Of a stretch of DNA of 32,272 nucleotides, positions 8,985-30,800 are shown piece by piece. The DNA is from Candidatus Dadabacteria bacterium (GTDB lineage: Bacteria > Desulfobacterota_D > UBA1144 > Nemesobacterales > Mycalebacteriaceae). Both the position numbers and the translations under genes were made by a program. The notes under the pieces are model-generated. The model made no database searches. It was not told the origin of the DNA and saw only the letters and a program-made list of their open reading frames with translations. How positions within the stretch are numbered: the first letter of the stretch is position 1; each line of letters begins with the position of its first letter. The stretch lies in contig JAPOUR010000005.1 in NCBI GenBank assembly GCA_026708565.1, forward strand, positions 1-32,272, written 5' to 3'.

Positions 8985-9027
8985 CCCGTCATTCCTTGCC
9001 CTGACAAGGAATCCAGAGGGGTCGGGG
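8985..9027 (+). repeat. Palindromic dispersed repeat, copy 1
   Basis: Core ATTCCTTG-N6-CAAGGAAT (8991-9012) inside a longer unit that runs from CCCGTC to CCAGAGGGGTCGGGG. It begins 3 bp beyond the stop of the YadA-type gene. The same 42-bp unit occurs inverted at 12831-12872. The form resembles the neisserial dRS3 type (ATTCCC-N8-GGGAAT) but the sequence differs. Confidence 0.85.
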
Positions 9028-12000: not shown

Positions 12001-12683
12001 CCAAATGCGCCGGAGTGTCTGAGTGTATATTGTTGTGTCTCCGGGTCTCTAAATACGAGCTCACCACCCTGACCAATGGCTATTGCTCCCCATGCGGTAG
12101 CCCTTGCCTGAGTGCCGATAGCCATTGCAGACTGAGCCGTGCTCCTTGCAGAACTTCCGATAGCAGTTGATAAACGACCCGTGCTCCTTGCAGAACTTCC
12201 GATAGCAGTTGATGAATGACCCGTGCTACTTGCAACCTCTCCGATAGCAGTTGAATGATAACCCGTGCTATTTGCAGAAATTCCGATAGCGGTTGAAAAA
12301 TTAATCGCATTCGTCCTAAAGCCGATAGCAATTGAGTCTTCGGCTGCGCTTGTCTCAAAGCCGATAGCAGTTGAATAACCATTAGCGCTACTTCCGCTAC
12401 CGATAGATGTTGACCGTCCTCTCGCGCTTGACCTATAGCCCAAGGCGGTTGAGTCATGAGCGATTTCGTTATAGTCGTCATCATCAAGAAAACTGCTATT
12501 TGTGCTTGCTTCAAATCCCAAAGCGGTGGAGTTATAACCCACTACGCTCGCATTCTGACCTATGGCAAGCGAATGGTTCGCCGCATCTTCACTGAAAGGC
12601 AATGTCTGCCCTCCCGCTTGTGATACCACTCCGACAATCAGAAAAGCCGCCGTTAAAAAAGTTTGTGTCAATGATTTTGTCAT
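9030..12683 (-). CDS. YadA-type trimeric autotransporter adhesin (complete)
   Basis: 1217 aa. A signal peptide (1-25, cleaved near SQAGG) is followed by a long beta-roll head of about 14-residue units with the STAxGxxAxA pattern (about 30-285 and 350-950). Connectors follow the form QIRIGxxxxxDVxIGxYxL (near 286, 959 and, diverged, 1104). A short predicted coiled coil with GYTREPRG lies near 313-350, and a Pro/Ser/Ala-rich linker near 985-1040. The C-terminal YadA anchor (about 1130-1217) has LSKAVAMSMAQQF, then four beta strands ending in FQW. Known proteins of this type form trimeric surface fibres for adhesion, using the anchor as their own export pore. ATG at 12683 with AAGGAG. A 498-bp segment is tandemly duplicated inside. 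Repeat identity makes its exact length prone to variation. The ligand is unknown. Confidence 0.93.
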   Translation of the reverse strand: MTKSLTQTFLTAAFLIVGVVSQAGGQTLPFSEDAANHSLAIGQNASVVGYNSTALGFEASTNSSFLDDDDYNEIAHDSTALGYRSSARGRSTSIGSGSSANGYSTAIGFETSAAEDSIAIGFRTNAINFSTAIGISANSTGYHSTAIGEVASSTGHSSTAIGSSARSTGRLSTAIGSSARSTAQSAMAIGTQARATAWGAIAIGQGGELVFRDPETQQYTLRHSGAFGSASIAIGSYSNASAWEALAVGRLSTATANGAIAIGGGASAAGIGSIAIGNSISANAGQIRIGHYTIDDVTIGNYSLSDFAGKASVNAAQIKQQQEHEKRIAEILNAEEAIKKAVGYTREPRGYNAAAFGNGAKADGVFSTAIGVNSLAGANGSAIGQGANASTPSATAVGQATLAGEAHTTAVGQGAEARAVNATALGRYAFALGINSSAVGEDAEATGDSSTAVGQGSRAVRLSTAVGQGAKATRANSTAVGQGAVASGLRSTAVGQGAVANIQWSTAVGQGAVAQHTSTAVGERSQANGTASSAFGQQSVASGRASTAIGQIARATADSATAIGRQSSARGNMSTAIGEFAQASQIDSSAFGQHARAYGSNSSAIGQGSEATGDSSTVVGQGSRAVRLSTAVGQGARAIQTNSTAVGQGAVASGPNSTAIGQGAVANIQWSTAVGQGAVAQSTSTAVGENAKATGGASSAFGQGSVASGGASTAIGQIARATADSATAVGRQSLATGISSTAVGGFAQASKIDSSAFGQYAVARGNASTAVGQGAKSNGHNSTVIGQGAFTPHDSATAIGQGAVAGARSTAIGHKANAGYLATVVGQAAYAIGDASTAVGMGANASKQYATVVGQDAKALGANSTVVGHLITTRGINSAAVGRGGIIEGNDNVSIGHLAIVRQKDAVAIGADARVGRGGTGGIGGIAIGRRASVTYTDAIAIGRDVSAGRDLFSPHHGQIRIGNVNQSDVRIGRYDLRALFADQFPQQSPPRTPSPAGISPASAVVRGAEAKAESPVVSAAGGLHRDIDSLNSAGATDGGFSRAVAIGVGAEVTGTGGTAIGYGARSSGVAIGNGAVAEAGDFISIGRDITTQGRQAQIAIGAERLTDVKIGAYDIGAMNTEIGNLRNNINGFQSGLDTTNTRLSKAVAMSMAQQFIAVDRDRRARFGLSHAGYRGQHGIGASFGVRINERIQVHFSGASDTGFDEKAIKSGIDFQW
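10370..11365 (-). repeat. Tandem 498-bp duplication inside the YadA-type head
   Basis: Two successive blocks of about 498 bp (166 codons) share the same order of head units, for example GQGSRAVRLSTAVGQGA...ANIQWSTAVGQ...STAIGQIARATADSA. Matching points include 10663 and 11161. Block limits are approximate because every unit resembles its neighbours. Confidence 0.75.
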
Positions 12684-12700
12684 TGCTCAATTCTCCTTTG

Positions 12701-12830: not shown

Positions 12831-12872
12831 CCCCACCCCTCTGGATTCCTTGTCAGGGCAAGGAATGACGGG
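12831..12872 (-). repeat. Palindromic dispersed repeat, copy 2 (inverted relative to copy 1)
   Basis: The full 42-bp unit including the CCAGAGGGGTGGGG tail, on the opposite strand to the copy at 8985-9027. Core palindrome at 12845-12866. With copy 1 it forms an inverted pair around the YadA-type gene. Confidence 0.85.
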
Positions 12873-12883
12873 AGGAAGGAATT

Positions 12884-12911
12884 GGATTCCTTGTCGGAGC
12901 AAGGAATGACG
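12884..12911 (-). repeat. Palindromic dispersed repeat, copy 3
   Basis: Core ATTCCTTG-N6-CAAGGAAT at 12886-12907 plus the GTC flank, in the same orientation as copy 2 but without the GAGGGGTGGGG tail. The 312-bp gap between the two adhesin genes (12684-12995) holds this, copy 2, the MFS fragment and the promoter region, but no gene. Confidence 0.8.
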
Positions 12912-27510: not shown

Positions 27511-27537
27511 GTCATTCCTTGCTCAGACAAGGAAACC
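27511..27537 (+). repeat. Palindromic dispersed repeat, copy 4 (degenerate)
   Basis: TTCCTTG-N6-CAAGGAA (27515-27534) with GTCA before and ACCAG after; the outer base pair and the GAGGGG tail are lost. It lies 13 bp beyond the DUF2723 stop. Confidence 0.75.
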
Positions 27538-27549
27538 AGTCCCTTTCTC

Positions 27550-27592
27550 CTGTCATTCCTTGCTCTGACAAGGAATCCAGAGGGGGTGGGGT
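27550..27592 (+). repeat. Palindromic dispersed repeat, copy 5
   Basis: Core palindrome at 27555-27576 with the full tail CCAGAGGGGGTGGGG. It has the same orientation as copy 4. The gene-free stretch 27498-27837 holds these two repeats, then a promoter and a structured leader for the second adhesin. Confidence 0.85.
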
Positions 27593-27644: not shown

Positions 27645-27672
27645 TTGACAGGTTGACGGGTAGCCGTAAAGT
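27645..27672 (+). promoter_or_regulatory. Promoter of the second YadA-type adhesin
   Basis: -35 TTGACA (27645-27650), 16-bp spacer, -10 TAAAGT (27667-27672, 4 of 6). The expected start is at about 27679, which leaves a leader of about 159 nt. A 10-bp sequence GTGAACTTGA overlaps the -35 (27639-27648) and recurs at the start site (27680-27689). Confidence 0.6.
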
Positions 27673-27679
27673 AGTCGCC

Positions 27680-27794
27680 GTGAACTTGAAGCAGGAAAAC
27701 GTAGTTTCCTGTCGGGTCTCTGTTACTGATAGAAGACCTTTAGACGGGGAAAAGGTGCAGACCTTCTCTTACTACGTATTTGCAGAAAGTTCAC
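27680..27794 (+). ncRNA. Candidate structured leader RNA with pseudoknot, upstream of the second adhesin
   Basis: Three perfect helices and one loop-to-strand pairing are visible. P1: GUGAACUU (27680-27687) with AAGUUCAC (27787-27794). P2: CAGGAAA (27692-27698) with UUUCCUG (27705-27711), loop ACGUAG. P3: ACCUUU (27736-27741) with AAAGGU (27751-27756), extended by AGAAG/CUUCU (27731-27735 with 27763-27767). The whole P2 loop is complementary to CUACGU (27772-27777), a 6-bp pseudoknot extendable to 7. P1 starts at the predicted transcription start and encloses everything. The layout is that of a cis-regulatory RNA or riboswitch aptamer. It does not match any riboswitch consensus I know. Covariation is untested. 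Confidence 0.5.
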
Positions 27795-27837
27795 ACGGCC
27801 CGGCGCCGAGAGCGTCAGACCGAAGGAGAATTGACCA

Positions 27838-30800
27838 ATGAGAAAATCATTCGCACAAACTTTTTTGACGGCGGCTTTTCTGGTTGTCGGGATGGTTTCG
27901 CAAGCGGGGGCGTATAAAGCGGGGGAAGGCGCTCACGAAGGCGGGGACAAGACAACAGCGGTCGGAGATAATGCGAATGCGAGCGGTGCAAAATCATCGG
28001 CCTTCGGCGAGGATGCGGTTGCCAATGGGACAAAATCCACTGCTATAGGTAGAGGTGCGGGGGCTTATGGCGATTTCTCAACGGCTTTGGGTCAGATTGC
28101 GCGGGCAACTCAAGTGGGTTCAACCGCTATAGGTCAGGACGCAAAGGCAACTGGAGCAAGATCAACCGCTATCGGCAGTAGCACAAGAAGCGAGGGTCAT
28201 TCTTCAATTGCTCTGGGCTATGGGGCAATGGCGACTGGTGTGAGAGCAATCGCCATAGGGAATGGTGTTACTGCCGGAGCAAACCAAATCAGGATAGGCG
28301 ACTCGTCTATGACCGATGTTGAAATCGGCAATTACGATTTGAGCAAGTTTCAGAACGCCGATGATGTTTCATCTGCAATCAGCACAGGTGTGGCGGACGG
28401 CGGAACGATTGACAGGGCGATTGATGATGTAATCAGCACAGGTGTGGCGGACGGCGGAACGATTGACAGGGCGATTGATGATGTAATCAGCACAGGTGTG
28501 GCGGACGGCGGAACGATTGACAGGGCGATTGATGATGTAATCAGCACAGGTGTGGCGGACGGCGGAACGATTGACAGGGCGATTGATGATGTAATCAGCA
28601 CAGGTGTGGCGGACGGCGGAACGATTGACACGGCAATTGACAGTGTGGTTGGCAGGGAGTTGTCGGCATATGGTAGAGGCGCGGGTTCGTTTTCAACCGC
28701 ACTGGGTTATCAGGCAAGTAGCGTAGGTCGGTATTCCTCGGCAATTGGACATGGAGCGCAGGCAGTCGGGGCGTTTTCAACAGTGGTCGGCTCTCAAGCA
28801 AGTGCAAGCCACGAGGGGGCAACGGCTCTAGGTCAGGACGCACAAGCAAACGCAGTGGCTTCTACTGTTGTGGGTCAGGGAGCGAAGGCGCCGGGGGCAA
28901 ACTCAACGGCTATAGGTCAGGGAGCGGAGGCGGGGAAGATTGATACTGAGATTGTTATTACTGATATTAGAGACGAGTATATCTATACTACTTCCGGTAG
29001 CACGGGGTATTGGCATAAAAGCGGCAACACTTTAACTTTTACGCGTACTGATTTAATACCAAGAACAAACGCAACGGCTGTGGGTCAGGAATCAAAAGCG
29101 CACGCGGATGACACTGTGGCACTGGGTCATTTGGCAACCGCAAGTGCAACCTCCGCAACCACCGTAGGCGCGAATTCATCGGCAAGTGGTCTTAATTCAT
29201 CCGCATTCGGTTATGGCACATTGGCGAGCGGAAACGATTCCTCGGCAGTAGGGCAAGGGGCGCAGGCAATCGGGGAGTTTGCAACAGCGGTCGGGCAAGG
29301 CGCGAAATCCGCCGAAAGTTCCACGTCCGTAGGTCAGAATGCGGTGGCAATCGGGGCATTTTCAACGGCGGTTGGCCGAAACTCGTTTGCGGGTGACTTT
29401 GAAAGTTCTGCATTTGGTTACTTGGCAAATGCGTCAAGAAGAGATGCCGTTGCCGTTGGAGCAAGGGCAACGGCGGGCGGTGAAAGGTCAACCGCCCTCG
29501 GCGGGCTTGCCAATGCGGTAGAGTTTTCAACGGCTGTCGGTTACGAAGCAACAAGCGGTATAGGGGCAACGGTCTTAGGGTCAGGCGCAACTGCCGCAAC
29601 GGGAGCCATAGCAATCGGCAACGGCGTGGAAGCAGGAGCGGGGGAAATTCGGATAGGCAACTCGTCTATATCCGATGTTGAGATTGGCGAATATGATTTG
29701 AGCGAGTTTCAGACCGGCGATGATGTTGAAACGGCAATTATCGATGCTGTCGGCAGTCAGTTGCCTTTCACTCATGATGCGTCAGATGGTCTGATTGCCA
29801 TTGGGGAGAACGCGAGCGTGTTCGGGTTTAATTCCACCGCCGTGGGTATTGGGGCAGAGGCGAGTGATTGGGGGGCTTTATTTACTGTTTCAGGTTCAAC
29901 AGCTCTGGGTGCTTATGCAACCGCGCGTAGAAGTTCAACGGCTGTGGGTGCTTATGCAACAACAGGTACGAGTGGGGGATCAACAGCTTTGGGCTCTCAT
30001 GCAAATAGCGCGGGTGGTAGCTCAATTGCTATCGGCCATAGAGCCACTGCTTCTGCATTTACAGCCATTAACATTGGCGGCGCCTCTTTTTTATCAACTT
30101 TACTTAATAGGCAATTAGGTGCATCAGCACAAGATGCCATAGCCATTGGCTACTTGTCAGCCGCTTCCGCAAACGGGGCCATTGCCCTCGGTGGCGGGGC
30201 GAACGCTACAGGCGTAAACTCCATAGCAATCGGGAAAGATATTGTTGCCGGTGACGGTTCGGACGGTAACGGCGCTATCCGCATTGGCGACCGTAACATC
30301 AGTGATGTAACAATCGGCAAATACTCTTTGGGCGATTTAGCGGAAATCCGCAATGCCGCCGAAAAGAACTGGCAGGAAGAAATTGACAGAGCGATCGGCT
30401 ACACAAGAGAGCCAAGAGGCACAAACGCCGCCGCATTTGGAAACGGCGCGACTGCGCTGGGCAAGTTTTCAACCGCTCTTGGTGTTGACTCAAGAGCGGG
30501 CAACTACTCAACCGCAATAGGACAGGCGGCGAATGCGAGCGGTGAAAACTCAACCGCTCTGGGCCATAAAGCAAATGCTACCGGTGTGAGAGCAATCGCC
30601 ATAGGGGATGGTGTTACTGCCGGAGCAAACCAAATTCGGATAGGCAACTCGTCTATATCCGATGTTGAAATCGGCAAATACGATCTGAGCGAGTTTCAGA
30701 CCATTAGCCAATCGTTGCCTTTCTTTCAGGATGCGTCAAAGGGTTTGCTTGCTGTTGGGAAGAACGCGAGCGTGTTCGGTTATAACTCCACCGCTGTGGG

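Follow-up and report, generated by a model that had tools for sequence, protein, structure and literature searches.

The 5' leader of the second adhesin gene in the analysed window (32,272 nucleotides from a 1.57-Mb draft genome of Candidatus Dadabacteria) is a conserved RNA structure with a pseudoknot supported by covariation. The reading that we favour, with reasonable though not high confidence, is that this leader belongs to a new, pseudoknotted class of RNAs that is a sister to sRNA-Xcc1 (Rfam RF02221), and that it would control its own gene in cis.

The leader is situated between a candidate promoter (27645..27672; -35 box TTGACA at 27645-27650, 16-nt spacer, -10 box TAAAGT at 27667-27672) and the start codon (27838..27840) of an ORF that contains YadA-head repeats and is at least 1,478 codons long. 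This ORF is of the trimeric autotransporter type and runs off the window end. All features of the leader are on the forward strand. Its closing helix P1 has eight outer pairs (27680..27687 with 27787..27794) and seven inner pairs (ACGTAGT, 27699..27705, with ACTACGT, 27771..27777) in the window copy, and 16-19 bp in most members. Enclosed by P1 are strand b (GUCGGGUC; GTCGGGTC at 27711..27718), helix P3 (TCTGT, 27719..27723, with GCAGA, 27757..27761) and, between the strands of P3, a conserved internal loop (GAAUAYAANA/GAAAUAA) with the P4 arm (27724..27756; consensus GAAUAYAANA-CCC...GGG-AAAUAA). Just 3' of P1 there is strand c, GRCCCGRC (GGCCCGGC at 27797..27804), which pairs with b across P1. 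The b:c helix is a pseudoknot, since its two strands are separated by the 3' strand of P1. Strand c is also the 5' half of a c:d hairpin (27797..27821) adjoining the ribosome-binding site AAGGAGA (27823..27829).

The window copy folds far more stably than its shuffled versions (z = -5.3; none of 200 shuffles was as good). Its lowest-energy fold is another, nested structure, the loop departs from the consensus, and an upstream strand a found in most relatives is almost absent. There is no obvious state of the window leader that sequesters the ribosome site, and a search of this leader for a terminator found none.

The first-pass annotation had assigned the element to positions 27680-27794, with an 8-bp closing helix at the two ends that begins at the predicted transcription start. 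This helix is indeed present at 27680-27687/27787-27794, and the promoter ends 7 nt before it, placing the start at 27680 and not downstream of 27700. The interval itself is too short, as strand c and the c:d hairpin fall outside. A pseudoknot had been proposed between the loop of a perfect 7-bp hairpin and a downstream strand. The hairpin, CAGGAAA-ACGTAG-TTTCCTG at 27692-27711, and the complement of its loop at 27772-27777 exist as sequence, but the hairpin is absent from every relative, and the loop and its complement are part of the inner helix of P1 (ACGTAGT/ACTACGT), which is nested, covaries and has four different sequences in four paralogs. A further proposal, pairing of UUCUC with GAGAA of the ribosome site as a switch, is not supported: paralogs B and C have the same ribosome site but lack UUCUC.

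It had also been claimed that the first adhesin has no such leader, and this is correct; the c:d hairpin is still found directly before its ribosome site. At 12671-12698 of the window (minus strand) and at G000:C32:7967-8031, two adhesin genes keep only the c:d hairpin and the ribosome site of the leader, and have their own TTGACT promoters. This suggests that the large RNA was lost or gained between promoter and c:d hairpin at these two genes. Palindromic repeats GTCATTCCTTGCTCNGACAAGGAATCCAG, often paired, occur near the adhesin genes (window positions 8988-9016, 12841-12910 and 27511-27580). There are five of them in the window, where none is expected, and they are also found upstream of paralog B and of C32:7967.

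The genome contains five full copies of the leader, A to E, copy A being that of the window. A search with the window region yielded B (C35:228), C (C35:18957) and D (C32:80939), and model R1, with A, B and C as the seed, recovered D and the fifth copy E independently. Copies A-D have a common fold outline with z from -5.3 to -7.9. The P1 strands of these four paralogs are GUGAACUU/AAGUUCAC, GUGAACAU/AUGUUCAC, UGUUAGUC/GGCUAACA and UGUCCAUU/AGUGGACA. The outer helix is completely paired in all four despite the sequence differences, and the outer and inner helices together are paired almost completely, with one mismatched cell, in copy A. By a weak Pfam match, the gene following D encodes a barrel protein of the outer membrane, and that following E is lipoprotein-like. 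Thus the likeness of the copies is not explained by duplication of adhesins.

The homologous leaders were tested for compensatory changes, and these are present. Among 22 members they occur in 24 of the 32 modelled pairs (raw counts, kinship ignored), and 95.7% of the cells are paired, compared to 73% after shuffling and 35-47% when the partners are slid. Helix P3, UCUGU/GCAGA here and UCCGU/GCGGA, UGCGU/ACGCA or UCCGC/GCGGA in relatives, has such changes at four of its five pairs in 22 members. The b:c strands, for example GUCGGGUC/GACCCGAC, GCCGGGGC/GUCCCGGC and GCCGGGUG/CGCCCGGC, are paired at 98.4% over 32 RNAs, including nine canonical RF02221 RNAs, whereas the best of 2000 shuffles reaches 89%; compensatory changes are seen at six of the eight positions. 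In most relatives strand b can also pair with strand a (ACCCG), which is found upstream in most Dadabacteria copies; a:b pairing is 97.5% in the seed set. Both a:b and b:c covary. The counts for a:b lean in its favour, as A10 was fitted to the R3 model (a:b), while b:c is not part of that model. Since strand c has an alternative partner in d, next to the ribosome site, the pairings compete. The seed alignments were hand-guided, with the register set by N padding, and the genomes are drafts.

Another candidate, the lowest-energy hairpin GGGUCU/AGACCC used in model R2, was judged weaker than b:c, because L052 and L037 break the hairpin and keep b:c. Only three sequences, copies A-C, bear on a kissing-loop reading of P3.

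The position of the RNA relative to promoters and genes is conserved as well. In 19 of 20 members (3.1 expected), the distance from the end of a -10 hexamer with at least four of six matches to P1 is 6-7 nt, and thus the RNA is predicted to start at +1. In 21 Dadabacteria members the start codon lies 22-57 nt past the 3' end of the RNA. The downstream proteins are usually lipoproteins or other exported proteins; inspection by eye shows a signal peptide, a lipobox or a membrane segment at the N-terminus. Not fitting this pattern are L029 and L061, with a DNA methyltransferase (directly after the RNA in L061), L034, whose downstream frame is broken, and degenerate copies. Judging from its place in the predicted transcription unit, the RNA forms the 5' end of mRNAs for many exported proteins in the little-known Dadabacteria.

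In total, covariance models identified about 30 further copies. These are spread over 15 of the 58 genomes of the phylum and a few from other phyla. Model R2, with the seed D-H, recovered A, B and C, which had been left out of the seed; its matches, L028 among them, are in 14 of 58 phylum genomes and in two genera only. Model R3 has matches in 15 of 58. When R3 was applied to 387 relatives (about 329 from outside the phylum), three genomes of other phyla were matched, G289, G168 and G210. Their RNAs have the same architecture with a longer P4, and a search of the relatives of G168 added two more. A strict pattern scan of genome contigs found one Dadabacteria contig only, which is due to the strictness of the pattern, and the same scan of viral contigs found none. 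No viral contig was matched when the adhesin served as a protein query.

Some members are unusual. The near-identical RNAs L067 and L070 of G289 are at the 3' end of P63C-domain (phage-type) genes and not before a gene. In L055/L061 (G001:C1:558055) P4 is enlarged by a long perfect hairpin AUGUGGG...CCCACAU.

At the gathering level, Rfam recognizes only tRNAs, and none of its riboswitch families matches. Below this level there is a relationship with RF02221. This model matches L035 with E = 8.7e-6 and has matches in many of 20 genomes, the best with 39.7 bits (E = 1.1e-5), and none reaching the gathering score of 53 bits; the window copy is not matched at E <= 10. Conversely, R3 recovers canonical RF02221 RNAs weakly (E from 0.0024 to 0.4). 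The closing stem, inner stem, loop and hairpin of RF02221 map onto b:c, P3, the conserved loop and P4. Indeed, the b:c stem surrounds the whole core in the new RNAs, and the inner stem, the AAUACAANA/GAAUAA loop and the CCC/GGG hairpin are all found, with the loop degenerate in the window copy. The local hairpin of RF02221 between P3' and strand c is absent, and the segment pairs upstream instead. The duplex of this segment with the upstream 30 nt has z from -4.6 to -9.6 in the new class, whereas the same test on eight canonical RF02221 RNAs gives -0.5 to 1.8. As neither the gathering score is reached nor the local hairpin formed, we consider these RNAs a sister class and not members of RF02221. 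Thus, of the suggestion of a new cis-regulatory RNA, the conserved pseudoknotted cis-leader is supported, but it is not wholly new, as the core is common to RF02221.

The genomic context of sRNA-Xcc1 itself deserves reconsideration. Inspection of canonical RF02221 RNAs from phages, E. coli prophages and a plasmid placed them on the same strand as, and just before, genes with the Pfam domains Bro-N, KilA-N, AntA (Ant), P22_AR or ORF6N. Of the further canonical copies inspected, one (from a plasmid) precedes an unassigned gene, one is inside an annotated anti-repressor frame, and two are in unannotated records. In Xanthomonas integron cassettes sRNA-Xcc1 is upstream of symE (PMC12444791). Xylella has seven copies, and in X. 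fastidiosa Temecula1 five copies are spaced by about 380 nt in one genomic island at 1,313,466-1,315,082 (PMC12189769). By analogy, each of the island copies may serve a small gene as its leader. The positions in phages and prophages suggest that sRNA-Xcc1 is mainly a leader of phage antirepressor and similar genes. A limited literature search found no statement of the antirepressor association, although one may exist. The RNAs described here are probably a new pseudoknotted, cis-regulatory sister class of this mislabelled family of leaders.

The mechanism could be as follows. Transcription would start at the first base of P1, as predicted from the promoter placement. P1 then closes the domain with P3, the conserved internal loop and P4, so that b inside the domain can pair with c just outside. 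Strand b may pair early with a, where this is present, or later with c; the other possible partner of c is d, next to the ribosome site. A factor binding at the conserved loop could choose between the folded pseudoknot and the combination of a:b and c:d, and this choice would change the expression of the surface protein or, in phages, of the antirepressor. A broader scheme is more speculative. Both branches, one of them with the crossing P1 pseudoknot, might form one family of cis-leaders sensing a common cellular signal via the loop, which in phages would govern the antirepressor decision (prophage induction) and in Dadabacteria would have been co-opted to set which surface proteins and lipoproteins are made. 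We regard this as tentative.

Several other explanations were considered. One is action in trans, by a stable small RNA cut or terminated from the leader, the position before genes being secondary. The Xanthomonas RNA is about 88 nt long and has mapped ends (PMC2996969), and sRNA-Xcc1 was described as trans-acting (Chen 2011, as represented in citing papers). However, in Dadabacteria the RNA has a fixed place, with the promoter before it and a start codon 22-57 nt after it, and many phage copies precede antirepressor-type genes. A trans-acting RNA should be indifferent to which gene follows it. For these reasons trans action seems unlikely.

The leader could also be a passive stabilizer, a helix at +1 shielding the mRNAs of abundant surface proteins from decay. 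The 5' stem-loop of ompA protects its mRNA in this way. As in ompA-type stem-loops, there is a helix at the 5' end of messages for outer-membrane proteins: P1 begins at the predicted +1, its sequence is free to vary as long as pairing is kept, and many targets are outer-membrane proteins or lipoproteins. However, both the internal structure and the sequence are far more conserved here. Stability alone explains neither the unpaired AAUA.AA.A / GAAAUAA, conserved across phyla, nor the b:c pseudoknot, and the phage RNAs keep the core without P1. This role, too, appears improbable.

The leader of locus L033 (1501-1626, G014) and that of L043 (1501-1626, G010), each with 14 nt following it, have 126 identical bases in two species, whereas the promoters are identical at 24 of 60 positions and the downstream genes are unrelated. 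Thus the RNA seems to have been exchanged as a unit from +1. This, along with the occurrence of sRNA-Xcc1 in Xanthomonas integron cassettes, might point to a DNA cassette that moves or recombines, in the manner of an integron or by copying itself, and whose fold serves DNA mobility and not gene control. However, the integron integrase (TIGR02249) is below the cut-off in 20 of 20 genomes, nearly all intact copies in Dadabacteria retain their orientation and position relative to the promoter and the gene, and conservation stops at the transcript start; we consider a cassette very unlikely. Finally, chance folding in repeated DNA upstream of adhesins, for which it can be said that the paralogs A, B and C each precede a related adhesin gene and hence their likeness alone proves little, is refuted by the compensatory changes, the unrelated downstream genes and the matches in other genera and phyla.

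Under the preferred reading of a cis-acting sister class, Dadabacteria, for which a limited literature search found no described regulatory RNA, gain a class of structured cis-leaders with a pseudoknot topology missing from the RF02221 model. Pipelines annotate sRNA-Xcc1, which is discussed as a trans-acting virulence sRNA; if it is mainly a leader, many annotated copies would read differently. Laboratory phages and reporters in E. coli then offer a direct way to test what the common loop may sense.

Riboswitch aptamers with H-type pseudoknots are compact leaders with a pseudoknot, a conserved unpaired core and alternative pairings near the ribosome site. These four traits are found here, in a conserved structured mRNA leader, and the comparison is one of a similar manner of working. 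In contrast to riboswitches, the targets share no common metabolic pathway, and no Rfam riboswitch matches. The closer relative is sRNA-Xcc1, with the same b:c stem, P3, AAUACAANACCC...GGGGAAU internal loop and CCC/GGG hairpin P4, followed by an A-rich spacer and the ribosome site of the next gene. However, canonical sRNA-Xcc1 starts at b, has the local hairpin between P3' and c, and lacks the upstream strand of P1, whereas in the new class the corresponding arm pairs upstream as the 3' strand of P1 (16-19 bp), creating the pseudoknot. The downstream genes also differ: those of the new class encode exported proteins, and those of sRNA-Xcc1, antirepressors or SymE.
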